Virus record (IMG/VR): IMGVR_UViG_3300036770_001877
Coordinates: 1-64,000 of that record
From: a virus
Strand: one strand, 5' to 3'
Length of the DNA stretch: 64,000 nucleotides
The notes under the pieces were generated by a model that made no database searches, was not told the DNA's origin, and worked only from the letters and a program-made list of their open reading frames with translations. This document shows positions 527 through 44,659 of the stretch, piece after piece; positions within the stretch are counted from its first letter, which is position 1; each line of letters begins with the position of its first letter. The position numbers and the translations under genes are program-made.

Positions 527-2044
527 ATGGCAGACGAGATTATTGTTACGCCCGCCGATGTTGTAACTGTAGAAGTATCAACCGGTACAGCTGGCGCACA
601 AGGACCTACGGGTCCTACAGGTCCTACAGGCCCTGCTGGTTCTGCATCAACAGTTCCAGGCCCTGTTGGTTCAACTGGTCCTACGGGTCCTACTGGACCG
701 CAAGGTGTAACTGGACCGACTGGACCACAAGGAGTAACTGGTCCGCTTGGACCGCAAGGTCCGTCTGGACCAACTGGACCTAGAGGTGAACTCGGTCCTA
801 CAGGTCCGACAGGTGCTGCTGGTACATCAGTAACAATTCTTGGTTCATTAGCAAATCAATCTTTACTTCCTGCTGAGGGCGACCTCGGTGATTCGTATTT
901 AATTAACGGCGACCTCTACGTCTGGGATGGCGATGAGTGGGTTAACGTTGGAACAATTCAAGGCCCTGCTGGTCCGCAAGGTATACAAGGAGCAACAGGT
1001 CCACAAGGTATTCAAGGCGAGCCTGGCCCACTTGGACCACAAGGTGAAGTTGGTCCAACAGGACCACTTGGTCCTACTGGTGCAACTGGTCCGCAAGGCG
1101 AAGCTTCAACTGTAACTGGTCCTACCGGTCCACAAGGTGAAGTCGGACCGACAGGTCCTACCGGACCGCAAGGTGAAGCATCAACAGTTGCTGGACCAAC
1201 TGGACCCCAAGGTGAGATTGGACCAACAGGTCCGCAAGGTGAAGTGGGCCCAACTGGTCCGCAAGGATTAGTTGGAGAAACAGGACCAACTGGTGCTCAA
1301 GGAATTCAAGGCGACACTGGTCCGACTGGTCCTACTGGCCCACAAGGAACCGGCGTAACAATACTTGGTTCTTATTCAGATTATTCTTCTTTAGTCGCAG
1401 CACATCCAACAGGTAACACTGGTGATGGATACATTGTCGGCGGAGATTTATATGTCTGGGATGGAACACAATGGGTAAATGTTGGAAGCATTCAAGGACC
1501 AACAGGTTCCACAGGTCCGACCGGACCAACGGGTGCTACTGGACCAATTGGTGAAACTGGACCAACGGGCCCAGAAGGAAACTTTTATGTAAGTGCTACT
1601 GCGCCATCATCTCCAATCGAAGGTGATGTCTGGTTTAACACTAACAATGCACGCAACTATGTTTACTACGACTCTTACTGGGTTGAGTGGGCATCATCTG
1701 ATATCGGCCCTACTGGACCTGCTGGTCCAACTGGAGCAACCGGACCTGCATCAACAGCTCCTGGTCCAACTGGTCCGACCGGACCTACCGGACCTACTGG
1801 TCCACTTGGTCCAGCATCAACTGTTCCAGGACCTGCTGGTATTCAAGGACCGACTGGACCAACAGGTCCAACTGGTGCAGCATCAAATGTAACTGGACCT
1901 ACTGGAGCTACTGGACCAACAGGTCCTGCTGGTGATGCTGGTCCTGCAAGCACAGTTCCAGGGCCAACAGGGCCAACAGGTGCTACTGGGCCTACTGGGC
2001 CTGCAGTTGATACGTTGCACCCGTTCCTCTTTGGAGTTATTTAA
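527..2044 (+). CDS. Collagen-like tail fibre protein
   Basis: The 505-residue protein is dominated by Gly-X-Y triplets, mostly GPT, GPQ and GPA, starting near residue 23 and running almost to the C-terminus. Such tracts form collagen triple helices, so the product is probably a trimeric, rod-like virion fibre. The triplets are interrupted by non-collagen modules of about 45 residues near residues 100-145 and 275-320 (both with VTILGS at the start and LYVWDG..W.N.G.IQG at the end) and a different one near 350-395 (GDVWF...YYDSYWVEW). Related modules recur in the other collagen-like genes of this window. The C-terminus ends in a short non-collagen tail (HPFLFGVI). Thr in the Y position is very frequent and could be glycosylated. 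Confidence 0.85.
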
Positions 2045-2087
2045 ATAAATTAATAAAGTAAACTTGATAGGATAAGGAAGGAAAACA

Positions 2088-2417
2088 GTGGCAATAACGT
2101 ATAAAGTGTTGGGCCAAGCTGTCACAACGGCTTCGGTCAACTCTGACGTATACACCGTGCCTTCTAACACTGAGGCCGTAATCAGCAGCATCGTGGTAGC
2201 TAACCGCGGGTCTGATAACACCACCTTTAACGTGGCCGTTCGTCCTAATGGAGCAACATTAGAGAACAAGCACTACGTGGCATACCAGGTGGGCATAGAC
2301 CGCAACGACACTACCGTGCTCTCATTCGGCATCACTATGGATGCTGGCGATGTGCTCACAGTCACAGCTGCCAACAACAACCTAAGCTTTAATGTCTTTG
2401 GAATGGAGACCGCATAA
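2088..2417 (+). CDS. Small fibre-cassette protein, copy 1 (unknown function)
   Basis: The 109-residue protein starts at GTG preceded by AAGGAAGG. It is rich in beta-branched residues and has no signal peptide or membrane segment. It resembles the 110-residue protein encoded at 6188 (a TAS.../T..VPS.TEAVISSIV.AN pattern with an ALxxxKHYVAY/QYALMAH equivalent in the middle), so the two are probably paralogues. Such small beta proteins beside fibre genes are often virion decoration or fibre-hinge proteins; that role is inferred from position only. Its stop overlaps the next start (TAATG). Confidence 0.7.
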   Translation: MAITYKVLGQAVTTASVNSDVYTVPSNTEAVISSIVVANRGSDNTTFNVAVRPNGATLENKHYVAYQVGIDRNDTTVLSFGITMDAGDVLTVTAANNNLSFNVFGMETA

Positions 2418-2686
2418 TGGCAGGCTTCGTTTCGCTATCAGGAAGTAGCGCTAAGTCCAAGCAAAACTTCTATGGCTTTAAGTACGACCCCGTAAACGAC
2501 GCACTGACTATTGAAGAGTTTTTATGGGGTAATACAGAAGTAATAACGCTCCCACAAGTAAACGATGATGGAACGCTGTATGTTGAATACGACGATACTT
2601 ACTATACAAATGCTGTAACTCCTTACGAGTTATCATTTTCGTGGGATACTACAAACTACGACCAGCTCATTATGGAGGTTAACTAG
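2417..2686 (+). CDS. Small fibre-cassette protein, copy 1 (unknown function)
   Basis: This 89-residue acidic, aromatic-rich protein overlaps its upstream neighbour by one base and the downstream fibre gene by one base (TAGTG). Its C-terminal end (SFSWDTTNYDQLIMEVN) matches the end of the 92-residue protein encoded at 6969 (LRFSVSATGHILMEVY), and both sit directly before a large fibre gene. I do not recognise a family. A partner or assembly role for the following fibre is the simplest inference. Confidence 0.65.
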   Translation: MAGFVSLSGSSAKSKQNFYGFKYDPVNDALTIEEFLWGNTEVITLPQVNDDGTLYVEYDDTYYTNAVTPYELSFSWDTTNYDQLIMEVN

Positions 2687-4758
2687 TGGCTTCTCAGATT
2701 TTTAACTTAGGTAAGCTTCGCTTTACCTATAAAGGCGCCTATAGTGGCTCTACTGAGTATCAGCTTAATGATGTAGTCAAAGCTAGCAATAAGCTTTACG
2801 TATACATCAATGCCGCAGCGACTACAGGCACGGCAGTCTCAAACACCTCATATTGGGCAGTAATGATTGAAGGATTTATTGACCCTGCCTCTGGTACCGC
2901 TGGTCAAACTTTAACTACTAACGGGACTGACTATGTATTTTCTGACCTAGCCCTTGTTCCAGACCAAGATACTCACGATGGAAAGATTCTAACCACAGAT
3001 GGCACAGACGCCTCTTGGACTGATTCTTTAACTGACCTTGAGTTAACCGGAGATATCGCTGGATTGGGTGCGCTGTTTGGTGGACCAGAGGCAAAAAACG
3101 ATTACGAAACTCTAGGTACAAATGTTAAGACAATATCAAATAAAGCTTTAACAAGTAACATCGCAACGATTACAACCTCTACAGCTCATGGATTTTTCCC
3201 ATTTCAATTTGTAAATGTTGATTTAACTATCCCAGATGCCGCATTTGATGGTGAACGGGAAATTATTGATACTCCTACGCCTACTACATTTACATTTGAG
3301 TCTGTATCTGGAAACATTGCATCAACCGCAGTAACAGGTTCTGTATCTGCGCTTCCAGGATACACAAACGCAGTTGCAGTATTTGGCGTAGACGCAGATG
3401 ACTATTCTCAGATTGTGTTTAGAAACGCTTCTAGTGCAGCGGCTGCTTCTACTGACTTTATCGCTTATGCAGATAACGGAACAGACTTTGCTGGTTATAT
3501 TGACATGGGTATTACAAGCTCAGGCTTTAACGACCCTGAGTTCACTATCACAGGCGCAAATGACGGATACATCTTTATGTCTGCTCCTGCAGGAACTACA
3601 GGTTCTGGAAATCTAGTTCTAGCAACTAATGACACAGGGTCTGAAAACAAGATTATTTTTGCAGCTGGCGGTTTAGGTTCTGACAACACCCAAATGGAAA
3701 TTACGCCAGACGTCAATGTTCACATTGAAATCCCAACGCCTTCCACATCATCTACTACAGGTGCTTTAACCGTAGTCGGTGGTGTAGGTGTTCAAGGTGA
3801 TATGAACATTGAAGGCTCTGTCTCTATCGTTGGTAACCTTACCTTTGGTGGCGGTTCAACTACTACTGAAAACCTAACCGTTACAAACCCTATTGTTTTC
3901 GTAGGCGATAAGAACGACGCAGATATCGTAGACCTCGGTCTTGTTGGAGAATACGCAACTACTATTACTCCAGAAGTTGCAACTGTAAACAACAAAGCTC
4001 TTGCATCTAATGTAGCTACTCTTACAACAGCCTCTGCTCATGGCTTCTTAGTTGGCGATATCGTAACAATCACAGATGTAGATGCTACATTTAACGGTAC
4101 CTACCAGATTACTGGTACTCCGCTATCTACAACTTTTACTTATGCTAAAACTGCTTCAAACGTACCAAGCACCGCAGTTTCTCCAACAGGCACAGCGACA
4201 GTAAACAAGCGCCGTAAGTTTGCGGGTGTTTTGCGTGATGCCTCTGATGGAGTAATTAAGTTTTACAAAGATGGAACTACTAAGCCAACTACAACCGCTA
4301 ACTTTGGTGAGGCTGGAGCGGCCTATGCTGATATCCAAGTAGCTGGTATAACAGCTAATGGTCTAGTATCCCTAAGCGGAACTGTTGATATACAAGAAAT
4401 GCGTGAAACAGTTGTATCAACAACAATCTCAGCAAACGCTATTGCTGCAGACTGGTCTGCTGGAAATATATTCTGGGTAAGTAGCACTCCGTCAGCTAAC
4501 TTCACAGTTAACCTTACTAACGTACCTACAGATAACGACCGCGTTATGACTATTAACGTATTTGTTACTCAAGGAGCGACTGGCTACCTTCCAAACGCGT
4601 TAAGCATTAATGGGTCTGGCGCAACTATTAAATGGCCAACCGCAGCTGCTCCAACTCCAACTTCAATAGCTGGAAGAATTGATGTTTTCACATTCACACT
4701 AATTCGTCTAAGCGGTGCGTGGACAGTACTAGGCTCAGCTAACCTGAACTGGGGGTAA
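2686..4758 (+). CDS. Large tail fibre protein, copy 1
   Basis: The protein has 690 residues from a GTG start. The N-terminus (residues 9-65) contains one copy of a CBM5/12-like module (YKGAYSGSTEYQLNDVV ... YWAVMIEG). Two copies of a beta module of about 70 residues follow (near residues 145-220 and 430-505; pattern SN.AT.TT...HGF...D...FDG...I..TP..TTFT.). Between them is a TGALTVVGGVGVQGDMNI segment typical of structural proteins from T4-like and cyanophage-type myoviruses. The C-terminus ends SANLNWG, matching the 968-residue paralogue at 7247. It is most likely a virion fibre that binds the host surface. Confidence 0.8.
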   Translation: MASQIFNLGKLRFTYKGAYSGSTEYQLNDVVKASNKLYVYINAAATTGTAVSNTSYWAVMIEGFIDPASGTAGQTLTTNGTDYVFSDLALVPDQDTHDGKILTTDGTDASWTDSLTDLELTGDIAGLGALFGGPEAKNDYETLGTNVKTISNKALTSNIATITTSTAHGFFPFQFVNVDLTIPDAAFDGEREIIDTPTPTTFTFESVSGNIASTAVTGSVSALPGYTNAVAVFGVDADDYSQIVFRNASSAAAASTDFIAYADNGTDFAGYIDMGITSSGFNDPEFTITGANDGYIFMSAPAGTTGSGNLVLATNDTGSENKIIFAAGGLGSDNTQMEITPDVNVHIEIPTPSTSSTTGALTVVGGVGVQGDMNIEGSVSIVGNLTFGGGSTTTENLTVTNPIVFVGDKNDADIVDLGLVGEYATTITPEVATVNNKALASNVATLTTASAHGFLVGDIVTITDVDATFNGTYQITGTPLSTTFTYAKTASNVPSTAVSPTGTATVNKRRKFAGVLRDASDGVIKFYKDGTTKPTTTANFGEAGAAYADIQVAGITANGLVSLSGTVDIQEMRETVVSTTISANAIAADWSAGNIFWVSSTPSANFTVNLTNVPTDNDRVMTINVFVTQGATGYLPNALSINGSGATIKWPTAAAPTPTSIAGRIDVFTFTLIRLSGAWTVLGSANLNWG

Positions 4759-4762
4759 TTAA

Positions 4763-5719
4763 ATGCCTTTTGTTAGCTCTGTTCGTGGAAGCTATGGCAG
4801 TCAAGGAAGACGCAGACCTCAAACTGGTCGCTTAGGTGCTGGTAGTACAGGCGGCTCAATTACTGAAGTTGGTGGTTACAGAATACATACATTCACCGCA
4901 GTTGGTACTAGCACTTTTGTTACTGACGGTGTAGGAACAGTTGAGTACTTAGTTGTAGCTGGTGGCGGTGGCGGTGGAGGATGGGGCGGCGGCGGCGGTG
5001 CTGGTGGATATATTTCTGGAACAACATCGGTTGCTTTAACAACTTCTTATAGTGTAATAGTTGGAAGTGGTGGAGCCCGCGGTACGTCTGTATATACAGC
5101 TGGTTCTGATGGTGGAAACTCTTCTGCGTTTTCTTCAACTGCTATTGGTGGCGGTGGTGGTGGCTATTTTAATAGAAATCCTGGCCGCTCAGGGGGTTCG
5201 GGAGGCGGACCTGGAAGCCATGACGCTAATGGAACTGCAGCTGCTTCTCCTGGAGCTGGTACTTCTGGGCAAGGATTTTCTGGCGGAACAACTCGTGTGT
5301 ATTTTAGAAATAATAATACTAGTGGTTGGTATCCAGGAGCTGGCGGCGGCGGCGGCGCTGGTGGTGTAGGAGGAAGTACGCAACAAGATGGTGGAGGAAA
5401 TTGGGGACGTGGAGGAGTGGGTGGTTTAGGAATATCAAACTCTATATCAGGGTCCTCGCTTTTTTATGCTGGCGGTGGCGGTGGGCATAGTCCTGGAAGT
5501 ATTGAGGGAGACAGCGGTGGAGAAGTTTACAACGCTCCAGGTGGTTCTGGAGTAGGCGGTCAAGGTGGAAATTATGCGGTCACTGATAATCTTTCTTACG
5601 CTGGGACAAGTGGAACAAATGGTCGCGGTGGTGGAGGCGGAGGTTCTTGGGGTGGAAATGATGCAAATGCTATTGGTGACGGTGGTTCTGGCACAGTAAT
5701 TATTAGGTATCCAATCTAA
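4763..5719 (+). CDS. Glycine-rich adhesin-like fibre protein, copy 1
   Basis: This 318-residue protein has a short basic N-terminus ([13 protein letters not shown]), a conserved [16 protein letters not shown] strand region at residues 36-52, and then long Gly runs ([17 protein letters not shown] and others) with Tyr and Ser spacers. The C-terminus ends GTVIIRYPI. This is the layout of the Gly_rich_2 family found as the exposed tip of phage fibres, comparable to polyglycine-loop adhesins such as gp38. It lies four bases after the large fibre gene, so it may be that fibre's receptor-binding tip. Confidence 0.75.
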
Positions 5720-6186
5720 TGGCCGCAATTGATTTTCCTAATTCGCCGATACTTGGCGAACAGTTCACAGCTAATAACACTACTTGGGAGTGGGATGGCA
5801 CAACGTGGACTGTTATTCGCACACCTGTTGTCGGCCCTACGGGCCCAGCTGGTTTAGAGGGAGCGACTGGTCCTACCGGACCGCAAGGCGCTACCGGACC
5901 TACTGGTCCTACTGGCTCAACCGGTGCTACAGGTACTTGGACAACAACATCAGAGACTCCTCCAGCAGGAGCAACTCAAGGTGATGCGTGGTTCGACCCT
6001 AATTCAGGCGCAATTTTTATTTTTTATGATGGATACTGGGTTGAGACTGGTGCAGCACCAATCGGACCTACAGGTCCAATAGGACCAACTGGTCCAACCG
6101 GTGCACAGGGCGAACTTGGCCCAACAGGTCCAGCTGGTTCATCCAGCGCAGGAAGCATTGGTCTATCGTGGTGGTTAGGAGTATAA
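5719..6186 (+). CDS. Short collagen-like fibre protein, copy 1
   Basis: The 155-residue protein begins with a [11 protein letters not shown] beta hairpin shared with the protein at 11635. It then has two blocks of Gly-Pro-Thr triplets (about residues 39-71 and 117-141) separated by a module with [10 protein letters not shown]...YDGYWVETG, which is related to a module in the fibre at 527. The C-terminus is [10 protein letters not shown]. The architecture is that of a short trimeric collagen-like rod. The gene closes the first copy of the duplicated fibre cassette. Confidence 0.75.
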
Positions 6187-6187
6187 A

Positions 6188-6520
6188 GTGGCAGGAATAG
6201 AACGACTAGGTGTAACAAAGCTGACGACCTCAGTCGCATTTGGCTCTTCAGGAACCACCATCTTCACAGCATCGGATAACTACCTATGCTCTGTTATCGC
6301 TACCAATACCTCTGCTGACGATGCAAATATCTATATTTATGTAATTCCTTCCGGCGCAACTACCGAATCTCAATATGCGTTGATGGCTCATAACCTATTG
6401 CTTCCTGGATACAATAGCTATGAGACTTTCCGCTTTGCGGTGAATAACGGAGATGTAGTGAAAGTTGCTGGAAGCGCAGATGTGTCTTACTACATTCAGG
6501 GCCTAGACCAGGTCACTTAG
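6188..6520 (+). CDS. Small fibre-cassette protein, copy 2 (unknown function)
   Basis: This 110-residue protein from a GTG start is the apparent paralogue of the protein at 2088. Both have a T.VAFG/TTASVN N-terminal segment, a central IATNTS/VVANRG strand, a conserved NNGDVVKVAG/MDAGDVLTVTA strand pair and a C-terminal aromatic strand. There is no signal peptide or known motif. A small virion decoration protein is possible. Confidence 0.65.
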   Translation: MAGIERLGVTKLTTSVAFGSSGTTIFTASDNYLCSVIATNTSADDANIYIYVIPSGATTESQYALMAHNLLLPGYNSYETFRFAVNNGDVVKVAGSADVSYYIQGLDQVT

Positions 6521-6528
6521 GAGAGTAA

Positions 6529-6969
6529 ATGCCAGGATACGCATACCCAGTAGATGCAGTAGCTTCTGCTGGAACAGCTAAGAGTGTTAGCTTCCTTGTC
6601 ACAGACACTGCCTCTTCTTCTGCTACCACTATCTTTACTGCTACTAGTAAAACCCGAGTGAATTCAATCGTTGCCGTCCACACTGGTGGCAGCGACACAG
6701 GCATTCTTCCTGTTGAAGTTTATGTAGGCCGCGGCACCCCAACGGTCAAGCACCTCATTGCCAAGAACCGTGTGCTCAAAAACAACTTCGTAGTACTGCC
6801 TATCGTCTCTGGCGATAGCCGAGTCGGCGAGGACGGCGACCCTACAACCAGCGGGTATAACAAAGTTCTTCCAGAATTTATCCTTCAAACAGGAGACAAG
6901 CTATACGCAACCTGTCCATTCGAGGATGTAATCCAGCTCCACATCGAGCTAACCGAGGGGGTTAAATAG
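6529..6969 (+). CDS. Fibre-cassette protein of unknown function
   Basis: This 146-residue beta-rich protein (PGYAYPVDAV N-terminus) has a GAGAGTAAATG ribosome-binding region just upstream. It shares the TTIFTA strand with the 110-residue protein before it, so it may be a further divergent member of the same small-protein family. No equivalent exists in the first cassette. Its stop overlaps the next GTG start (TAGTG). Confidence 0.6.
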   Translation: MPGYAYPVDAVASAGTAKSVSFLVTDTASSSATTIFTATSKTRVNSIVAVHTGGSDTGILPVEVYVGRGTPTVKHLIAKNRVLKNNFVVLPIVSGDSRVGEDGDPTTSGYNKVLPEFILQTGDKLYATCPFEDVIQLHIELTEGVK

Positions 6970-7247
6970 TGTCAAATACGCCTGTATTCATCAATATTGA
7001 CGGCAATACCTCAACTACCCTAACCACTTCCAACCTAGAGGACATTGCAGATAAAGTCTTTTATGGAGCAAGGCAGGACAGGGAAACAGGAAAGGCTTAT
7101 ATTGATATCATTGCTGGAGGAACTGCTATCTCGCTAGGTGATTCCTACTCGGCTCGTCCTGATGACTATTTTAACTGGATGTGGAGTAGCAACACTCTAC
7201 GTTTTAGCGTATCCGCAACTGGCCACATTCTGATGGAGGTATACTAA
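6969..7247 (+). CDS. Small fibre-cassette protein, copy 2 (unknown function)
   Basis: This 92-residue protein occupies the same place before a large fibre gene as the 89-residue protein at 2417. They share length, acidic composition and a C-terminal hydrophobic strand ending ILMEVY/LIMEVN. Both neighbouring junctions overlap by one base (TAGTG and TAATG), so it is translated with the fibre operon. No known family was recognised. Confidence 0.65.
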   Translation: MSNTPVFINIDGNTSTTLTTSNLEDIADKVFYGARQDRETGKAYIDIIAGGTAISLGDSYSARPDDYFNWMWSSNTLRFSVSATGHILMEVY

Positions 7248-10153
7248 TGGCTCAGATTCTTGACCTGGGCAAATTCCGCTTTGACTTCAAGGGAGTCTAC
7301 TCTGGCTCAACAGAGTATGAGCGCAACGATGTGGTCCAATACGGCGGTAACGTTTACTGCTATACCTTAGGTACCGCAAGCACCGGCAACCTCCCAACAG
7401 ATACGGCTTTCTGGACTTTGATGGTCGAAGGTTTTAATTATCGCGCTGCTTGGGATGTAGCAACTCAATATCTTCTAGCTGACGTGGTTTCTTACGGTGG
7501 TAAGGTTTACATTGCTCTTCAAGACACTATTGGTGATAACCCAGTAACTTCAGGTTCTGATTGGGCGGTTCTTGTTGACGGTATCCAGTACGAAGGCGAA
7601 TGGTCTTCAGCTACTAGCTATCAAAAAGGCGACGTAGTTAAGTACGGTGGAAATATATATATTGCTAATGCTAATAGTATTAACTCAGTCCCAACTACTC
7701 CTTCTGTAACTTGGGAAATTCTTGTCTATGGTGTCGAATGGAAAGGCGCCTACAACGACGCTACTGCCTACAAAGTAAACGATATTGTTTCATATGGCGG
7801 TAAGTCTTATATCTGTATTTTAGCTTCTACTGGAAACGAGCCAGCAGCTAGCCCATCTAACTGGGCAATCTTCTCAAGCGGTTTTCAATGGGAAGGACAG
7901 TGGTCTTCTTTAACAAACTATCAAGCTGGCGATGTAGTTTCCTACGGCGGTCTTGTATATGTAGCTATTGCTGACTCACTTAATAGCGCTCCAACAGACA
8001 CGCTTTATTGGGCAGTGCTTATCGAAGGCATCGCTTGGAAAGGCGAATACTCAGGGGCTACCACTTATAACAAAAACGATATTGTTTCTTACGGCGGTTC
8101 ATCTTGGATTGCTAAGCAGAACACTCAAGGCAACGCTCCGGTAGTAGGAGCTAACTGGGATACTCTAGCTGCCGGTACATTCCCATCATTCGCTGGCGCT
8201 GCTGGTTACTTCCTAAGCAACGACGGAACATCTGTCGTATGGACAGACTCAGTTACGGTCTCAGAACTTACCGCGAATGACAAAATTTATGTAGGCCCTG
8301 ATGCTGAGCAGATGGAAACTGACATCGCTCTCACCAATGCGGCCGCAGTATTTAGATTTGATAATGGCTCAGAAGATGAGCTATTCGCTCAGATTGCCTT
8401 TAAGAACGCTGACCCAACATCGTCTACAGACATTATTGTCTATTCAGACAATGGTGGCGATAGCTACGGCTGGGCATCCTTCGGTGTAACAGGCTCTGAC
8501 TTTGGCGACCCACTCTTCCCGCTAACAGGAAACAACGATGCTTATGTCTTCTACGATGCTCCTCTAGAAGTTACCTTAACAGTAACTGATAAAGAGCTTA
8601 CTTCTAACGTAGCAACTTTGACCGTTAGCGAAACTATTGACCCTGCAGAAGTATATGTCGGCTCAATCGTGGATGTAACTGGCGTAGACGCAACCTTCAA
8701 CGGTACCTATAGGCTAACGGCAGTAGATGACGTAGCGGGCACAATCTCATACGCCAAGACCGCCTCTAACGTAGCCTCAACCTCTGCCTCTGGAACTGTT
8801 GTAAGCAACGCAGGTTCACAAGGTAACTTGGTCTTTGCTACTGGTGCTAACGGTTCTGATAACAAGATTATCTTTGCAGCTGGTGGTTTCGCATCTGGTA
8901 ATACGCAGATGGAAATCACTCCAGATGTGAACGTCCACATTGAAATTCCAACACCTTCAACCTCACCGTCTACTGGTGCTCTCACTGTTGTGGGTGGCGT
9001 AGGTATCCAAGGTGACATGAATATCCAAGGTAACGTTGCAATCGTAGGTACCATCTCATTCGGCGGTTCTGGAACTACAGTTACCACTCAGAACCTTGCG
9101 GTTTCTGACCCAATCATCTTCTCTGGTACCAACAACGTAGATGACCTTGTAGACCTAGGTATCGTTGGCGAGTACACAGTAGATGTAACTGATGTAGTAA
9201 CTAGCGTAAATAACAAGGCTCTTACATCTAACGTAGCTACCCTAACCACTACCACCTCACATGGATATTCTGTATACGATGTAGTGGTTGTAACTGGCGT
9301 AGGTGTTCCGTTTGATGGAACTCACGTTATTACCGCGGTAACTTCAACCACATTTAGTTTTGCTAAAGAAAACGCAAATGTAATCTCAGCAGCGGTAGAC
9401 CCAGTTGGAACTGCTACAAAGACACGTGAGCGTAGATGGCGTGGATTTGTTCGTGACGCCTCTGACGGTGTAACTAAACTATTCCAAGGCTCTACTGCAA
9501 AGCCAGGAACCACAGTTGACTTCAGCAATGCTGGCTTAACTTATGCAGCGTTGCAGGCAGGCTCTTTTACAGCAGATGCTATTACAGCAGTAGCCACTGG
9601 TATCACCTCTACTACTGGAACTAACGCGCTAAAAGACTTAACACTTAGCGGTAGCGCAAACACTTTTGGTACATCAACTATTGCAGGTAACTTTACAGTC
9701 TCTGGCGACCCGACCTTCTCCGGAAACCCTATATTTAGTGGAACCCCGTCCTTTACTGGAACTCCAACCTTTACTGGCGGCGTTCGTGTTCAGGAAATGA
9801 TTGAAGATGTTGTAGATGTAACCCTGTCTTCTAACGCGGTAACTCTTGACTACAGCGCTGGTAACATTTTCTGGACTACTAACACACCATCAGCAGCAAT
9901 GACCTTTAATATTACAAATGCCCCAACTACAGATGGCAGAGTGTTTACTGTAAACGTTCTTGTTACTCAAGGCACTACTGGATATATTCCTACTACCCTA
10001 ACTATTAATGGAAGCGCAACTACCATTAAATGGGCTGCAGGAGTTGCTCCAACTCCAACATCAAGCTCTGGAAAGATTGACATCTTTACCTTTAACATTG
10101 TTCGCAGAGCTTCAGCGTTTACCGCATTAAGCTCAGCTAACCTCAACTTCTAA
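7247..10153 (+). CDS. Large tail fibre protein, copy 2, with six CBM-like repeats
   Basis: The protein has 968 residues and is the paralogue of the 690-residue fibre at 2686. Six tandem repeats of about 49 residues (residues 14-310) carry the consensus W.G.(Y/W)...T.Y...D(V/I)VSYGG..Y.A......P.....W..L..G, resembling CBM5/12 chitin-binding-type modules. Next come two copies of the dispersed beta module of about 70 residues (near residues 443-520 and 648-725) around a TGALTVVGGVGIQGDMNI segment. A short FSG/TFTG repeat near residues 825-845 precedes the C-terminal domain, which ends SSANLNF. Most of the length difference from copy 1 is repeat number. The role is probably surface glycan binding. 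Confidence 0.8.
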   Translation: MAQILDLGKFRFDFKGVYSGSTEYERNDVVQYGGNVYCYTLGTASTGNLPTDTAFWTLMVEGFNYRAAWDVATQYLLADVVSYGGKVYIALQDTIGDNPVTSGSDWAVLVDGIQYEGEWSSATSYQKGDVVKYGGNIYIANANSINSVPTTPSVTWEILVYGVEWKGAYNDATAYKVNDIVSYGGKSYICILASTGNEPAASPSNWAIFSSGFQWEGQWSSLTNYQAGDVVSYGGLVYVAIADSLNSAPTDTLYWAVLIEGIAWKGEYSGATTYNKNDIVSYGGSSWIAKQNTQGNAPVVGANWDTLAAGTFPSFAGAAGYFLSNDGTSVVWTDSVTVSELTANDKIYVGPDAEQMETDIALTNAAAVFRFDNGSEDELFAQIAFKNADPTSSTDIIVYSDNGGDSYGWASFGVTGSDFGDPLFPLTGNNDAYVFYDAPLEVTLTVTDKELTSNVATLTVSETIDPAEVYVGSIVDVTGVDATFNGTYRLTAVDDVAGTISYAKTASNVASTSASGTVVSNAGSQGNLVFATGANGSDNKIIFAAGGFASGNTQMEITPDVNVHIEIPTPSTSPSTGALTVVGGVGIQGDMNIQGNVAIVGTISFGGSGTTVTTQNLAVSDPIIFSGTNNVDDLVDLGIVGEYTVDVTDVVTSVNNKALTSNVATLTTTTSHGYSVYDVVVVTGVGVPFDGTHVITAVTSTTFSFAKENANVISAAVDPVGTATKTRERRWRGFVRDASDGVTKLFQGSTAKPGTTVDFSNAGLTYAALQAGSFTADAITAVATGITSTTGTNALKDLTLSGSANTFGTSTIAGNFTVSGDPTFSGNPIFSGTPSFTGTPTFTGGVRVQEMIEDVVDVTLSSNAVTLDYSAGNIFWTTNTPSAAMTFNITNAPTTDGRVFTVNVLVTQGTTGYIPTTLTINGSATTIKWAAGVAPTPTSSSGKIDIFTFNIVRRASAFTALSSANLNF
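7286..8175 (+). repeat. Six tandem ~148-bp coding repeats (CBM5/12-like)
   Basis: Six in-frame units of about 147-150 bases encode the repeats at the N-terminus of the large fibre. The DNA of the units has diverged, so they are not recent perfect duplications, but SYGG and the flanking aromatic residues are kept in nearly all. The paralogous fibre at 2686 has a single unit. Confidence 0.8.
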
Positions 10154-10161
10154 GGAGTAAC

Positions 10162-11244
10162 ATGCCCTTTGTAAGTAGCGTTAGAAACAATTTTGGTATT
10201 CAAAAAAGACCTTTTCCTATTAGTGATGGTAAAGGGTCTGTAACCTCTTCTGGCGGTACGATAACCACTCTTGGTGGTTATCGTATACATTCTTTTACAT
10301 CAACAGGTAGTTCTTCATTTACATTTACTGTTTCTGAAAATGTAGCTGGAAATGGGTCCATACGAAGTGATGGAACTTTAAACACTGGGTCTGGTACAAC
10401 GGGAGCCCTAGTAGAGATTTTAATGGTGGGAGGCGGAGGCGCAGCTGGAAACTATTCTGGTGGCGGGGGAGCTGGAGAAGTACTTTCAATATCTCGAATA
10501 TTAACTGCGGGCACGTATTCGTTAAGCATAGGGTCTGGAGGAACTGGAAGTAATACTGGAACCTGGAATGATAATAGGCATGGACAAGATACCACCGGTT
10601 TTGGAGAAACAGCTAAAAGAGGTGGTGGAGGAAAATCTTCTGACAACGATACAGATGGTGGAGTCGGTGCAAACGGAACGCTAACCTCTGTTGGAAATGG
10701 TGGTGGCGGTTCTTCACGTACTGCTGGTTATTTTGGTACTGTAGGAACTTCAGTAGGAGCTGGAGTGACTCGTTACGGGGGTAATCGTGGTGGGCAAATA
10801 TCCAGTGGTGGTGGTTCTATAAACCAAGGCCCTAACTATCCTGGTGGCGGAGGCGGAGGAGCAGGTGCTTCTGTAACTGGAGATACTGGCGGAACTACAT
10901 CTAATAACTCTTCTGGTATTGGTGGTATTGGAGTTGTAAATTCTATTTTAGGCACCGCATACTATTGGGGCGGCGGAGGAGGTGGGGGAGTTTATTATAA
11001 TAGCCCTGCAACTACTGCTGGCTCTGGAGGACTTGGTGGAGGCGGTGGAGGAGGAAATGTTAATCCTGGTTTAGGTGGCGGTCAAGCGTTAAACGCTGGT
11101 GGAAATGGGCAGGCAGTCTCCCCATATAACGGAGGAAGTGGTGGCGCTAATACTGGCGGCGGCGGTGGTGGTGGTAGAGGCGAAACTGGCGGAACTGGCG
11201 GAAATGGCGGCTCAGGAATTGTTGTAGTACGGTACCGTATATAA
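10162..11244 (+). CDS. Glycine-rich adhesin-like fibre protein, copy 2
   Basis: This 360-residue protein is the counterpart of the 318-residue protein at 4763. The N-terminus ([12 protein letters not shown]) and the GGYRIHSFTSTGSSSF segment match it, and multiple Gly runs follow (GGGGGGGVYYN, GGGGGGGR and others) before a C-terminal IVVVRYRI strand. The middle Gly-rich loops differ strongly between the copies, as expected for receptor-binding loops under selection. It fits the Gly_rich_2-type fibre-tip family. Confidence 0.75.
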   Translation: MPFVSSVRNNFGIQKRPFPISDGKGSVTSSGGTITTLGGYRIHSFTSTGSSSFTFTVSENVAGNGSIRSDGTLNTGSGTTGALVEILMVGGGGAAGNYSGGGGAGEVLSISRILTAGTYSLSIGSGGTGSNTGTWNDNRHGQDTTGFGETAKRGGGGKSSDNDTDGGVGANGTLTSVGNGGGGSSRTAGYFGTVGTSVGAGVTRYGGNRGGQISSGGGSINQGPNYPGGGGGGAGASVTGDTGGTTSNNSSGIGGIGVVNSILGTAYYWGGGGGGGVYYNSPATTAGSGGLGGGGGGGNVNPGLGGGQALNAGGNGQAVSPYNGGSGGANTGGGGGGGRGETGGTGGNGGSGIVVVRYRI

Positions 11245-11625
11245 ATGCGTTTTAAATCGTCGCAAAATATCTTTAAAGATTTTGGGGAAGTGTTTGACCC
11301 AAATTGGATGGACTCTGACAAAATAATTTTACCTCCCAAAACTGATTGGGATTACAAACGCGAAATGCGTTTTGAAGATGTAAATATTTGGGAAGTCATT
11401 TATGAGCAAGGCGGAGCTGTTGCAGTATATGCGGCTTGGGACCCATATGCAGAGTTTTATTTGGTAAGAGTAGGTTGGTTTAAAGAAGTTCAAGGCCACG
11501 GCTTTGAGACATACTACGGACCAGGAGCTCAGAAACAAGTGCAAAAACGTGCAAAAGAATTAGGCATTCATCTCTGCACTCAACAACATTGGGTAGAGCC
11601 TGAAGATATGTGGCTATACCAGTAA
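11245..11625 (+). CDS. Hypothetical protein in the fibre cluster
   Basis: This 126-residue protein starts immediately after the preceding stop. It is rich in aromatics (WDYKREMRFEDVNIWEVIYEQGG, then AVYAAWDPYAEFYLVRVGWF and TYYGPGAQKQVQKRAKELGI). It looks like a compact globular alpha/beta protein rather than a fibre. It has no equivalent in the first cassette and no recognised family. Confidence 0.65.
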   Translation: MRFKSSQNIFKDFGEVFDPNWMDSDKIILPPKTDWDYKREMRFEDVNIWEVIYEQGGAVAVYAAWDPYAEFYLVRVGWFKEVQGHGFETYYGPGAQKQVQKRAKELGIHLCTQQHWVEPEDMWLYQ

Positions 11626-11634
11626 ACTGTCAAG

Positions 11635-12000
11635 ATGGCCATCAACTTTCCAGACAGCCCTGCGCTAAATGAGCTATTCGGAGTAGGCGACCAGATTTGG
11701 TACTGGGATGGCTATGTGTGGCGCATCAGCTTAGCTCAAGGAGCTACTGGTCCTACTGGTCCAACCGGACCCATTGGACTGACAGGCGCTACTGGTCCTA
11801 CAGGACCACAAGGAGTTACTGGCCCAACTGGTCCAACAGGACCGACTGGTGCTCAAGGTATACAAGGTATTACTGGTCCAACTGGTTCTACAGGACCAAC
11901 AGGACCGACTGGTCCGGTGTTCCAAAACATTGATGGTGGAACACCAACTACAATTTATGGTGGCTCATCAATTATTGACTGCGGAGGTCCAACCGGCTAA
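11635..12000 (+). CDS. Short collagen-like fibre protein, copy 2
   Basis: The 121-residue protein begins with an [13 protein letters not shown]...[10 protein letters not shown] head shared with the protein at 5719, followed by about 20 Gly-X-Y triplets rich in GPT (residues 37-97). A short C-terminal segment ([19 protein letters not shown]) follows, a motif commonly seen at the end of phage structural proteins. Its stop overlaps the next ATG (TAATG). Confidence 0.75.
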
Positions 12001-13706
12001 TGGCTGTCAGAGTTCAATTTAGACGCGGCACCGCTTCAGAGTGGGCATCCGCTAACCCAATTATGTCTCAAGGTGAAGTCGGCTATGAGTATGACACTGG
12101 CCGATTCAAAGTAGGTAATGGTACACAAGGCTGGAACTCGCTTCCATATTCTTCAGGTGTTACTGGCCCTACTGGTCCTAGCTCTACTCTTACAGTTGGA
12201 ACTGTAACAAATCTTTCTCCCGGCGCTGCCGCTACTGTAACAAATAGCGGAACATCTACCGCAGCAGTTTTTAATTTTGGAATTCCACAAGGCGTAACTG
12301 GACCAACAGGTTCAACTGGCCCAGTTGGTAACGCAGGTCCTACTGGACCAACCGGAGCAACTGGACCAACTGGAGCTGCATCAACAGTTACTGGTCCTAC
12401 CGGACCTACTGGAGCAACGGGACCACAAGGTGTTCCTGTTCGACTTCTTGGTTCTGTTGCAGATGTACCTTCACTTCCATCTACTGGTAATACTTTAGAT
12501 GATGCTTACATTGTTGAATCTGATGGAGATTTATATGTGTGGGACGGCAGTGCTTGGTTTAATGCTGGCCCTATTGTGGGTCCACAGGGTGACACTGGAC
12601 CGACAGGCCCCACAGGCGATACAGGCCCCACAGGACCTACAGGTGCTACTGGAGTTGTATCTGTAACTGGTCCTATCACCAACACTGGAACATCAACCGA
12701 TGCGGTAATTGGTATTGACCAATCATTACTATCTTTAACTCTTTCACAAATTTCTGATGCTGGAACGGCAGCTGGAAAGAACTATCCAACTACCGGTGAT
12801 GCAGTCGCTGGTGAGGTAGTACTAGGGGATGACTCTCGTTTATCAAATGAGCGAACACCAACAGATAACTCAGTAACCACTGGCAAGATTGCAGACTCTA
12901 ACGTAACCACTGGCAAGATTGCAGATTCTAACGTAACAAATGAAAAATTAGCTAACGACAGCATTACTATTGGAACTACTGAGATTGTTCTTGGAACAAC
13001 GGCAACATCTATTTCAGATTTAACAATATCTAACTTAATAGTAGATGAATCCATAGTGTTTGAAGGCTCTACATCAGACGCCTACGAAACTACTTTGCAG
13101 GTAACAGACCCAACTGTGGATAGAACAATAACTATCCAAGATGCTTCTGGAACCCTACCCCTAGCTGAGCACGTCCTAGCTTCATTAGGTATGCCGACTA
13201 CCAATGCGGTAGACGTAGCTCCAAGATGGGACAACCAGTCGGCTGCTCTTGTCAGTGGCACGGTATATATGACGTTCTTCACTCCGCTAAAGGATATTGA
13301 GATTGACGATATCTCGGTATCTTCAGCAGGTACCGCTTCTGCTGGAACAACCCTGGCTCGTTTCGGTCTCTACACTTACGACGAGACCACAGCAACACTT
13401 GTAGCTAGAACTGCTAGCGACACCACCATATTCTCGGTGCGTAACACTCTGTATACAAGAACCCTTAACGCCACTGGTGGATATCCACTTACTTACACAC
13501 TCAAAGCTGGAGTTCGGTATGGGCTTGCAGTTGTTTGGGTTGGAACAACACCTGGAACTGCATATGTCGCATACGGTTTCCCACCAGGGTCAGTAGCAGG
13601 ATTGAGTCCAAAACTAAATGGAGCAATCACAGGTCAAACAGATTTGCCAACAACTGGAACACCAGTAACAACTCAAAACATCGGACTATGGGGTAGGTTA
13701 TCGTGA
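12000..13706 (+). CDS. Collagen-like fibre with Mtd-type N-terminal domain
   Basis: This 568-residue protein starts with [16 protein letters not shown] followed by [21 protein letters not shown], the signature of the Mtd N-terminal (phage fibre/hyaluronidase N-terminal) domain that anchors receptor-binding proteins to the baseplate. Gly-X-Y triplets follow near residues 55-145 and 197-220. Between them is the [15 protein letters not shown] module also seen at 527. Two identical short [10 protein letters not shown]-type repeats lie near residue 300, and a globular beta-rich C-terminal domain (about 390-568) is probably the receptor-binding head. It is the last gene of the fibre block. Confidence 0.8.
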
Positions 13707-13835: not shown

Positions 13836-14897
13836 ATGAAAGTCGCTGTTTACACCATAGCTTTAAATGAAGAACACTTTGTATCCAGATGGTACGAGTC
13901 AGCTAAAGATGCCGACTACCTACTAATTGCAGATACCGGTTCTACAGATGGAACTCCAGATACTGCAGTTAATCTAGATATAAATGTCTACGACTTGTCT
14001 ATAAAACCCTGGAGGTTTGACGACGCCCGCAACGCATCATTGGCTTTAATACCAGCCGATATTGACTACTGCATCGCACTGGATATGGATGAAGTACTCA
14101 TGCCAGGTTGGCGAAAAGAACTAGAAAAGGCCCACACCCATAAGTGGACACGACCACGATACAAATACACGTGGAGCTGGAATCCTGATGGCTCGCCAGG
14201 ATTACAGTACGGCGGTGACAAGATTCACCTACGCCATTACTATCGCTGGAAGCACCCTGTACACGAAGTCATAGTCCCTGACAGGATTGCGGAGACTCAA
14301 GGGTGGACAAATCTGGAGATACATCACTATCCAGATAGCACTAAGTCTCGTGGCCAGTACTTCCCACTTCTTGAGCTGTCAGTTAAGGAAGACCCTAGCG
14401 ATGATAGAAACGCATTTTATTACGCTAGAGAATTATTTTTTCACGGGCAATTTGAGAAATCAATTGCTGAATTCCAAAGACATCTGAGCTTACCGCGAGC
14501 TACCTGGCGGCCAGAACGCGCCGCCTCCATGCGCTACATTGCAAAGATGTCTGACAACCCGACAGAGTCAGAGGCTTGGTTTAAGCGAGCTATAGACGAA
14601 GTGCCAGATAGACGAGAGGCCTATGTAGAGCTAGCCAAGCTTTACTACGAACAAGCTAGGTGGGCAGAGTGTCTGCAGGTTTCTGAGAAAGCTTTAGAGA
14701 TTAAAGACAAGCCATTAGAATATCTGTGCGAGGAGTTTGCTTGGGGTTCAGAGCCCTGGGATTACGCGGCAATCGCATCTTACAACTTAGGTCTTTTTGA
14801 TAAAGCACTTAAATATGGAGCCAAAGCCGTAGAATTGAATCCACAGGACCAAAGGCTTAATAACAACCTGGTCTACTACCAGCTTAAGGAGGCGTAG
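13836..14897 (+). CDS. GT2-family glycosyltransferase with TPR-like C-terminus
   Basis: The 353-residue protein has a GT-A fold N-terminus: an ALNEE motif at residues 9-13, DTGSTDGT at 33-40, FDDARNASL at 61-69 and the metal/nucleotide-binding DMDE at 83-86. This is the family of SunS-like and other GT2 enzymes that transfer sugars from nucleotide sugars. The C-terminal part (from about residue 190) is helical with tetratricopeptide-like repeats (AYVELAKLYYEQARWAECLQ, then AIASYNLGLFDKALKYGAKA), as in some peptide-modifying glycosyltransferases. It is placed directly after the collagen-like fibre genes, so glycosylation of the Thr-rich collagen tracts is an attractive inference. Cell-surface or DNA glycosylation are alternatives. 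Confidence 0.85.
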   Translation: MKVAVYTIALNEEHFVSRWYESAKDADYLLIADTGSTDGTPDTAVNLDINVYDLSIKPWRFDDARNASLALIPADIDYCIALDMDEVLMPGWRKELEKAHTHKWTRPRYKYTWSWNPDGSPGLQYGGDKIHLRHYYRWKHPVHEVIVPDRIAETQGWTNLEIHHYPDSTKSRGQYFPLLELSVKEDPSDDRNAFYYARELFFHGQFEKSIAEFQRHLSLPRATWRPERAASMRYIAKMSDNPTESEAWFKRAIDEVPDRREAYVELAKLYYEQARWAECLQVSEKALEIKDKPLEYLCEEFAWGSEPWDYAAIASYNLGLFDKALKYGAKAVELNPQDQRLNNNLVYYQLKEA

Positions 14898-17844: not shown

Positions 17845-19332
17845 ATGGCATACTTACGGCCAGGAGTATATGTTGAGGAAACCCTCAACCCTATTCCGCC
17901 TGTCGTAGGCGCTAATGCAACATCTGTTGCTGCTTTTCTTGGCGCTGCCGACAAGGGTCCTCTAAACCCAACACTTGTGACTTCGTGGACTCAGTACACA
18001 AGCCTTTACGGTTCATGGGGCACAGAAAACACTCTCACAACCGCTGTCTACCTTTTCTTTGCAAATGGTGGAAATCAAGCGTACATAAAGAGAGTTCCAG
18101 GTGCAGGCGCATCATCCGCTACTAGAGTGTTTGATGACCGTTCTGTATCTACTGACCCAACTCTTGCTCTTACCGCTTCAAGCGTAGGAACATGGGGCAA
18201 TTCAGTTTATATAACAATCACTAACTCCACATTAGCTGACCACTTTGATGTGACTGTCTTCTATGGAGGAACTGGAGCTGCAAACGTAGTTGAGCGTTTT
18301 ACTGACCTCAACATGACAGCTTCTAGCCCACGTTACGCAGTGAGCGTAATTAACGCAGGCTCTACTTATGTACAAGCATCAGACGAAGGCTCAACAGCTA
18401 CCGGTGGAACAAGAAACCCATCTGTAGTTTCTCTAGAGCCTCTAGCTGGTGGCGCAAACGGCTCAGCTGTAACAGAAAGCGATATCGCTAACTCTGCTGT
18501 AGCCCTAGACACAGTTACAGAATCACTAGTACTAAACGCTCCTGGAGTTACAACCTCAGCAGCTGTAAACGTACTACTCTCATACGCTGAAGGTCGCGAC
18601 GATGTGTTCATAGTTATTGACGCTATTAACGACACCGTTGCTAACCAGATTGTTAGAGCAGCAGCTTACACAGCTAGCTCACTAGGTGCGGTTTACTATC
18701 CAAACCTAACAATTCCAAGCCCTACCTCAACAGCTGCAGGAGCAACAGTTACTGCAAACGTTGGTGGAGCTATCGTTGGACAGTTCATGTCTACAGATGC
18801 TTCTCGTGGTGTCTTCAAGGCTCCAGCTGGTATCAACAACAGAATTGCAGGAGCAGTATCTGTTCCTAAGTTAACTAATGCAAACTTGGATGCTATGAAC
18901 TCCGCGTCTGCTCCAGTTAATGCAATTCGTTATATCCCAGGCAGCGGAATTGTAGTAATGGGCGCTCGTACCCTTAAAGCAGGGTATGCAGACCGTTACG
19001 TCCCAGTTCGTCGTTCCCTCATTTACCTACGCAAGGCTTTGACTGACCTCACAACCTTCGCAGTATTTGAGCCAAACGATGCTGTGCTCTGGCGAACAAT
19101 TAATTCCACGGTATCAACCTTCTTGACAGATTTCTGGTCACAAGGCGGTCTTCGTGGAGCAACTCCAGCCGAAGCGTTCTTCGTTAAGTGCGACTCCGAC
19201 ACCAACCCATTGATTAAGATTGAAAATGGAGAGGTAAACATTGAAGTCGGTGTAGCCCTACAACGCCCAGCTGAATTCGTCATTATTAAAATCGGTCAAT
19301 ACGACGGTGGAACAACCGTCTCAGTGGCGTAA
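17845..19332 (+). CDS. Contractile tail sheath protein
   Basis: The 495-residue protein opens with LRPGVYVEETLNPIPPV and GANATSVAAFLGAADKGP, the diagnostic N-terminus of the phage tail sheath family, and has a further conserved block near residues 340-430 (YIPGSGIVVMGARTL, then YVPVRRSLIYLRKAL and FEPNDAVLWRTI). The C-terminal segment (GEVNIEVGVALQRPAEFVIIKIGQ) is the part that links neighbouring sheath subunits. AAGGAG lies upstream of the ATG. It forms the contracting outer tube that drives DNA injection. Confidence 0.95.
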   Translation: MAYLRPGVYVEETLNPIPPVVGANATSVAAFLGAADKGPLNPTLVTSWTQYTSLYGSWGTENTLTTAVYLFFANGGNQAYIKRVPGAGASSATRVFDDRSVSTDPTLALTASSVGTWGNSVYITITNSTLADHFDVTVFYGGTGAANVVERFTDLNMTASSPRYAVSVINAGSTYVQASDEGSTATGGTRNPSVVSLEPLAGGANGSAVTESDIANSAVALDTVTESLVLNAPGVTTSAAVNVLLSYAEGRDDVFIVIDAINDTVANQIVRAAAYTASSLGAVYYPNLTIPSPTSTAAGATVTANVGGAIVGQFMSTDASRGVFKAPAGINNRIAGAVSVPKLTNANLDAMNSASAPVNAIRYIPGSGIVVMGARTLKAGYADRYVPVRRSLIYLRKALTDLTTFAVFEPNDAVLWRTINSTVSTFLTDFWSQGGLRGATPAEAFFVKCDSDTNPLIKIENGEVNIEVGVALQRPAEFVIIKIGQYDGGTTVSVA

Positions 19333-26769: not shown

Positions 26770-27179
26770 TGACTACTTCAGCAATATCACTGCCTTTTTC
26801 TTTTAATAATTTCGGTCAGCTCTCCTCTAGTAGTGACCCTAAAAAGATATGGCAAGACCGCGTGTTGTTAGTCCTCATGACAAGATTTGGTGAACGAGTT
26901 ATGAGACCAGACTTTGGCTCTAATGTTTCCGCGACTCTTTTTGAGCCAGATTCGGTTGCCATAGAAACCATACGCCGGACCATCTCTGAAGCTTTTTCTG
27001 AATGGTTAGGAGACCTAGAGTTAACAGCTATAAATCCAGTGTTCAACCCCGACACTGGAGCGCTAAATGTAAGCGTGACCTACCGACTTCCTACAGGGGA
27101 GGAGGACACAGTGCCCTTAAAAACCGCTATCCTTAGTAGGTCAGGAGACATAATCCAGGAGATACCTAACAATGGCTGA
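26769..27179 (+). CDS. Baseplate wedge protein gp25-like
   Basis: The 136-residue protein belongs to the GPW/gp25 family: KKIWQDRVLLVLMTRFGERVMRPDFGSNVSATLFEPDS is the diagnostic stretch (residues 24-61). The ATG at 26769 overlaps the spike stop (TGATG) and is preferred over a TTG 18 bases upstream. The EPR core motif usual in gp25 is not obvious; the matching place reads EWLGDLEL. gp25 joins the wedge to the inner baseplate and helps to start sheath polymerisation. Confidence 0.88.
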   Translation: MTTSAISLPFSFNNFGQLSSSSDPKKIWQDRVLLVLMTRFGERVMRPDFGSNVSATLFEPDSVAIETIRRTISEAFSEWLGDLELTAINPVFNPDTGALNVSVTYRLPTGEEDTVPLKTAILSRSGDIIQEIPNNG

Positions 27180-44350: not shown

Positions 44351-44659
44351 CTGCCTGGTCAAGATGTAGATGACTGGCGTTATGCTGCGAAATGTCGCGG
44401 TATGGATACCGAACTTTGGTATCCGCCAAGAGATAAAGACTTATATAAATTAATAGCTGATAAAGCTAAAGCTGTTTGCTTTGGTAAAGATGGCAAGCCT
44501 GAGTGTCCAGTGCGCAAAGAATGTTTGTTGGAGGCTGACCGGATGGACGAACCCCATGGAATATGGGGCGGGCTGTCCCATCGTGAGCGTAATGCTCTAA
44601 AAAGAAAAGCTGAAAAGAAAGGCCTGACGCTAGCTCAGTGGGTGAGCTTAGACGACTGA
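44351..44659 (+). CDS. WhiB-family Fe-S regulator (CTG start)
   Basis: The product is 102 residues if started at CTG 44351, seven bases after AAGGAG (44338-44343). Starting at the ATG 44402 would remove the first cluster cysteine (C15 in YAAKCRGMD), so the upstream start is preferred; an in-frame TAA at 44333 blocks anything earlier. The four cysteines (C15, C43, C52, C58) and the GIWGG turn (70-74) are the WhiB signature, with C-x8-C in place of the usual C-x2-C spacing between the second and third. WhiB proteins bind a 4Fe-4S cluster and modulate the actinobacterial sigma factor. Confidence 0.85.
   Translation: MPGQDVDDWRYAAKCRGMDTELWYPPRDKDLYKLIADKAKAVCFGKDGKPECPVRKECLLEADRMDEPHGIWGGLSHRERNALKRKAEKKGLTLAQWVSLDD

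Follow-up and report, generated by a model that had tools for sequence, protein, structure and literature searches.

The viral record IMGVR_UViG_3300036770_001877 is 64,251 bases long, and the window analyzed here covers its first 64,000 nucleotides. Near its start the window carries an array of collagen-like rod and tail-fibre genes in which two consecutive homologous sets, A and B, follow each other in the same order between positions 2,088 and 12,000. We propose, with a probability of roughly 0.64, that this array of actinophage adhesion devices was built by modular stacking, in which recombination inside collagen-coding tracts would combine partners with matched ends. The genes of the array, with lengths in amino acids (aa), are as follows.

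527..2044, plus strand: g1, a long collagen-like rod of 505 aa with GPT tracts (PF01391, E 3.5e-37); comparison across relatives defines its R-like domain ([17 protein letters not shown]) and tail (LHPFLFGVI)
2088..2417, plus strand: A1, a small beta protein of 109 aa (phrog_1276; coupled to the upstream tail), proposed tip of rod g1
2417..2686, plus strand: A2, an adaptor of 89 aa ending LIMEVN (precedes FIBn-type fibres; profile match to B2), proposed partner of the fibre N-terminus
2686..4758, plus strand: A3, a tail fibre of 690 aa (homologous to B3; phrog_5073, tail fibre)
4763..5719, plus strand: A4, a glycine-rich adhesin of 318 aa (PF21722, E 1e-14), with putative docking motif MPFVSSVRG and a TNF-like/glycine-rich domain
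5719..6186, plus strand: A5, a short collagen rod of 155 aa, composed of a head, an R domain and the tail LSWWLGV
6188..6520, plus strand: B1, a small beta-sandwich protein of 110 aa (AlphaFold2 model; WWLG-type tails upstream), proposed tip of rod A5
6529..6969, plus strand: Bx, 146 aa, a weak relative of B1 (BLASTP E 4e-4)
6969..7247, plus strand: B2, an adaptor of 92 aa ending ILMEVY
7247..10153, plus strand: B3, a tail fibre of 968 aa (PF02839, E 1.6e-29, five stretches)
10162..11244, plus strand: B4, a glycine-rich adhesin of 360 aa (phrog_2295, E 5e-21), with putative docking motif MPFVSSVRN
11245..11625, plus strand: By, 126 aa, proposed adhesin chaperone or accessory protein
11635..12000, plus strand: B5, a short collagen rod of 121 aa ending IIDCGGPTG, with a 46-aa head in common with A5
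12000..13706, plus strand: C568, a collagen-containing tail protein with an Mtd_N N-terminal domain (PF18454, E 9e-13)

The original prediction had described this region as two cassettes of the same order, and all open reading frames (ORFs) were recovered at the positions and lengths it gave, including the extra 146- and 126-aa genes of the second set. The endings that it had called ILMEV-like in the small acidic proteins are LIMEVN and ILMEVY, and its ANLN fibre endings are SANLNWG and SANLNF. Pairwise alignment, together with profile comparison of the smallest proteins, revealed that all five gene pairs are related beyond low-complexity sequence. The fibres A3 and B3 are 38.8% identical over 799 columns when unmasked (E 4e-130) and 51% identical over 443 aa by BLASTP with low-complexity masking (E 2e-103). 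Under the same masking, A4 and B4 share 56% identity in their first 43 aa (E 2.5e-8), and the 46-aa N-terminal heads of A5 and B5, which do not include the collagen tract, match at E 1e-7. Similarity is far lower in the small pairs. A1 and B1 match weakly in pairwise comparison (22%, E 0.012), and no pairwise similarity was detectable between A2 and B2 (local z 0.9); profile–profile alignment with hhalign linked A2 to B2 with a probability of 97.8% (E 1.1e-12) and A1 to B1 with a probability of 58% (E 1e-4), against E 0.03–0.8 for wrong-partner controls. B3 contains six N-terminal CBM5/12-like repeats of about 50 aa (7247–8200) versus one in A3; these repeats make up much of the 278 aa by which B3 is longer, and their number is a length polymorphism of the fibre shaft.

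The common gene order and the homology of all five pairs would fit an in-place tandem duplication, within this lineage, of a five-gene cassette whose copies then diverged, as originally predicted, and A5 does look like a B5-type head joined to a g1-type R domain, which unequal crossover in collagen would give. Several results contradict this explanation, which we consider quite improbable. The best direct DNA repeat outside collagen spans 257 nt at 72% (3607–3863 / 8822–9078) and is therefore too diverged for a recent duplication, and A1/B1 and A2/B2 are barely recognizable as pairs. Phylogenetic analysis of 52 fibre C-terminal domains placed the A3 orthologues with fibres from L017, L019 and L020 and the B3 orthologues with fibres from L027, L028 and L036 (labels of this kind denote the relatives compared with the record, mostly metagenome contigs). 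Forcing the A and B fibre ends into one clade costs 150 log units and is rejected by the approximately unbiased (AU) test (p 2e-55), which rules out simple tandem duplication for this domain; A2 and B2 likewise fall in deeply separated clades. A much older duplication, predating the divergence of these phages, may have occurred. The second-slot fibres of L010 and L014 form a third group whose union with the B3 type is also rejected (AU p 3e-63), and the tree of the A block conflicts with that of g0, the gene upstream of g1 (AU p 0.004). The tree of the fibre middle domain has long branches and is too poorly resolved to give a domain-wise signal. The separate clades, the third group and the A-block/g0 conflict thus suggest that slots have been filled and refilled with homologous modules that had diverged beforehand.

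Comparison of relatives locates where such exchange may take place. L010, L014, L015 and L031 carry two sets at this place, while L023/L024/L026, L030/L035, L208 and L210 carry one set of the B type. Set A behaves as an in-frame block of about 4.3–4.6 kb that is present or absent between close relatives (L013 versus L210/L208; L010 versus L023/L024). L210 is 92.8% identical to L013 at the DNA level through the capsid gene, g0 and the N-terminal half of the rod, then skips 4.6 kb and resumes at 89.2% in the distal half of the L013 A5 and on through its B1 and Bx. At both seams the break falls within GPT-coding sequence of a flanking rod gene, with the reading frame kept; the independent pair L010/L024 likewise differs by presence or absence of the set A block. 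The rod of single-set genomes is built as an in-frame chimera of a g1-like N-terminus, collagen, an A5-like R domain and a WWLG tail. Identical runs of up to 20 nt occur in both g1 and A5 of the window, and the segment present in L013 and absent from L210/L208, transferred by homology, predicts the following limits.

1574..5857, plus strand: predicted exchangeable block, comprising the g1 R domain and tail, A1, A2, A3, A4 and the A5 head

Twice in the g0 tree, at separate positions, a dual state sits next to a single one. An assembly artefact was judged an unlikely cause of these states because both recur in several contigs from different samples. A survey based on the capsid gene found hypervariable sequence downstream of g0, with the dual state as one arrangement among many. 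The variation thus appears to lie between genomes, as gain, loss or swap of blocks. The original prediction had also suggested a switchable host range, which finds no counterpart here: neither RVT_1, the mark of a diversity-generating retroelement, nor a resolvase-family/serine invertase gene of an invertible tail-fibre switch was detected in the record (possibly incomplete), although C568 has an Mtd_N domain, and the fibre genes all lie on one strand. The lack of reverse transcriptase and invertase in the record led us to reject fibre switching by either enzyme.

Neighbouring gene products carry ends that match at three junctions. Proteins, rods and others, that end in LMGA/LFGVI precede A1-type proteins, and those that end in WWLG(V/A) or similar precede B1-type proteins; at a 60% redundancy cut the test gave 7:7 with zero crossed pairs (p 6e-4). 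The A2/B2 adaptor lies upstream of 45 of 46 FIBn fibres (IDLGK-RF start) versus none of 15 other fibres, and upstream of the 46th stands a protein that resembles the adaptor weakly and ends in LLMEFE. An adhesin starting with MPFxSSVRG is the next gene for 41 of 50 fibres with an LNF-type C-terminus and for one of 18 other fibres (table 41/9/1/17, Fisher p 1e-8, a value that ignores kinship); the C-terminus of the fibre and the N-terminus of the adhesin covary. The A1 rule also holds in two isolates that had no part in defining it: in Planktophila phage LanE43-AprF5, A1 comes after a protein ending FMLMGA, and in Pontimonas phage phiPsal1 it comes after one ending LMLMGG. The A1 homologue of phiPsal1 is annotated as "putative virion structural protein"; one A1-type query returned zero matches in the isolate search.

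We infer that these matched ends represent docking of rod tail to beta-sandwich tip, of adaptor to fibre base and of fibre tip to adhesin. Because the coupling joins g1 to A1, A5 to B1, and A2-A3-A4 and B2-B3-B4 among themselves, the functional units are probably a rod with its small beta protein and an adaptor with its fibre and adhesin. They are offset from the blocks originally drawn, since A1 goes with the upstream rod (527–2044) and B1 with rod A5. In the first unit (g1+A1; A5+B1/Bx), a collagen rod would thus receive its small beta-sandwich tip from a gene of its own; the second would join adaptor, fibre and glycine-rich adhesin (A2-A3-A4; B2-B3-B4, where By is a probable accessory). In the first unit the rod tail would correspond to the kind of small protein that comes next (A1 after LMGA/LFGVI, B1 after WWLG); in the second, the LMEV-type end of the adaptor would be matched to the fibre N-terminus and the LNF-type fibre domain to the MPFxSSVRG start of the adhesin. 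Because each end adjoins its partner, recombination inside the long repetitive GPT tracts would swap whole matched blocks in frame, by which the number and type of devices could change between close relatives, with a possible effect on host range. Matched inheritance of a fibre tip and its tip protein, and mosaic fibres, are a general principle known from T4-like and lambdoid phages. For the coupling of rod tail and small protein and for collagen as the seam of multi-gene blocks, no prior description was found in a limited literature search.

Ordinary mosaicism would offer another account, in which independent fibre genes stand side by side and tail/next-gene pairs are linked with no docking function. 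The fibre region of relatives is indeed hypervariable and neighbouring genes move together; mosaicism nevertheless seems unlikely to us, as the coupling is seen at three separate junctions and the WWLG tail is kept across very different upstream proteins. This tail is the only evident common part of proteins as unlike as 642-aa rods and 58–97-aa ORFs, and its residues stay constant while its codons vary (serine TCG/TCT/TCA; last codon GTA/GTC/GTT/GCT).

Modular stacking with matched ends has several points against it. Neighbouring genes are co-inherited, so linkage accounts for part of the coupling; only the A1/B1 test used an identity cut against redundancy, and most of the counts come from the contigs on which the patterns had been defined. 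For nine fibres whose C-terminal domain is strong, the motif of the next gene falls below the threshold; in several of these cases the gene still starts with a recognizable, sub-threshold motif. The WWLG rod of L131 precedes an unrelated protein, and the only isolate found to carry B1-like proteins, DSL-LC01, deviates from the tail rule, as the protein preceding its B1-like one has no WWLG ending. Most of the relatives are metagenome contigs, the g0 tree does not polarize the change into block gain or block loss, and the Foldseek E-values against the PDB described below (~1e-3) are weak.

Both sets recur in unchanged order in divergent relatives, and because they stay intact there, it is plausible that one virion carries two adhesion devices. 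The two sets might instead be alternative versions of one device that compete for a single baseplate site, so that virions carry mixtures. The N-terminal 62 aa of A3 and B3 are 50% identical, leaving room for one attachment site, and each fibre is preceded by an A2/B2 adaptor; the deep separation of A2 and B2 would also permit distinct attachment, and we regard competing versions as somewhat unlikely.

Structure prediction is in line with the roles proposed for the tip proteins. The A4 model (mean predicted local distance difference test [pLDDT] score 73.6) is confident at residues 31–130, and its glycine-rich part is mostly of low confidence (block pLDDT 49–78, residues 131–280). In A4 a TNF-like beta domain comes before the glycine-rich one, and Foldseek searches against the PDB gave as best matches 7ypx, a fibre of the myocyanophage Pam3 (prob 1.00), and the TNF-like/glycine-rich (TG) domain of LTK/ALK (E ~1e-3). 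AlphaFold2 modelled B1 as a confident beta-sandwich (pLDDT 95.6) with weak PDB matches, TNF-family ligands and the exosporium protein ExsFA among them. Many phage proteins of about 110 aa in a viral structure library have the B1 fold; most are "uncharacterized" and some are annotated as virion structural proteins. By analogy, a collagen rod with a TNF-like head encoded separately would be akin to a C1q-like protein split in two.

Known systems resemble the array in part. In the T-even gp37-gp38 type, the separately encoded glycine-rich adhesin gp38 of phage S16 caps the fibre C-terminus and combines variable loops with a conserved scaffold (PMC9608196). In the array, too, the fibre gene precedes a separate gene for a glycine-rich adhesin, which would cap the fibre; docking motif, adaptor gene, collagen rods and actinobacterial host differ, and the PDB matches listed for the A4 model did not include S16 gp38. 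Phage Pam3 has the fibre gp24 and the chaperone gp25 (PMC9608196). A4 resembles gp24 in having TNF-like plus glycine-rich domains, and By follows the adhesin gene, as a chaperone gene such as gp25 might; unlike in Pam3, the glycine-rich protein would form a separate tip on a long fibre and occurs in two sets, and By matches no family detectable by sequence comparison. Collagen-like side-tail fibres of Escherichia coli prophages are modular, and recombination has been proposed to create new combinations (PMC3368898). There the domains are combined within one protein, whereas in the array collagen is the seam of multi-gene in-frame blocks between close relatives. In Streptococcus thermophilus phages, collagen-like repeats separate the domains of an antireceptor, a host-range protein with a variable region (PMC5601072); this is a single protein, and the stacked multi-gene sets seen here are not described there.

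Further features of the array were compared among relatives. The g0 gene (31–525) is probably truncated by the record start because its homologue in L009 has 356 aa, and C568 forms a downstream boundary conserved in relatives. Bx comes after B1 in B-type sets of relatives, and Pfam and PHROG searches assigned it to no family. By lies directly 3′ of the glycine-rich adhesin of either set in many relatives, and comparison with TFA families gave no Pfam match at E 0.01 and no PHROG match. A promoter/terminator scan of the array gave counts near those of shuffled sequences and nothing that separates the two sets; the longest terminator-like stem of the region is a hairpin at the start of the B4 gene (10256–10286, 14-bp stem followed by a T-rich stretch). 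In the single-set relatives L030 (8423–12515) and L035 (12612–16698), three proteins of 441–464 aa replace the adhesin and the fibre C-terminal domain, and those of L030 have zero Pfam matches.

Relatives also carry opposite-strand cargo after By (or after the adhesin) and ahead of the B5 rod (L010:17555-20435, L015:18317-19936, L019:13776-16868, L024:14958-19655 and L210:9790-12288; also L027, L028 and L031), and the window has none there. The cargo includes the FAD tryptophan-halogenase family, 2-oxoglutarate-Fe(II) (2OG-Fe(II)) oxygenases, a carbamoyltransferase, the CMD family, DUF6065 and recurring "WYK..P" proteins of about 230 aa; putatively, these enzymes might modify fibre proteins or host glycans. 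A family-2 glycosyltransferase with TPR repeats (13836–14897; phrog_13126, beta-1,4-glycosyltransferase, E 2e-121) directly follows C568 and is conserved in relatives. Its homologue in isolate DSL-LC01 adjoins a tryptophan halogenase near the fibre genes.

Gene content identifies the record as a contractile-tailed phage, with the following genes.

17845-19332: sheath
27172-28866: baseplate wedge
40168-42147: DNA polymerase
55031-57067: ribonucleotide reductase

Near its C-terminus the baseplate wedge protein contains a 79-aa domain (28561–28794) with 49% identity to residues 149–227 of A3, which points to one domain common to both proteins. The sheath and polymerase are nearest to those of Streptomyces phages of the BRock/Alone3 kind (~40%). 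A WhiB-like regulator gene, which serves as an actinophage marker (PMC10202952), was identified at 44375–44599 (60.4 bits, above the cut-off) and is present in 21 of 25 related records. The WhiB gene and the affinity to Streptomyces phages therefore make an aquatic actinobacterium the most likely host. The capsid family (query L010:5107-6195), with at least 600 matching stretches in viral contigs, is a very abundant aquatic actinophage-like group.

The array corrects a natural misreading, because adjacent homologous sets need not mean tandem duplication. The widespread beta-sandwich virion proteins of about 110 aa may be separately encoded heads of collagen rods. Matching gene ends and recombination sites together provide a testable account of how host recognition is rearranged in abundant aquatic actinophages. 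More tentatively, and at somewhat below even odds, the tails WWLG(V/A), LMGA, LMEV and LNF might act as an "address code" that specifies the next docking part, with the collagen genes as in-frame recombination seams. If so, aquatic actinophages could stack, remove and swap whole devices like connectors while leaving assembly intact.

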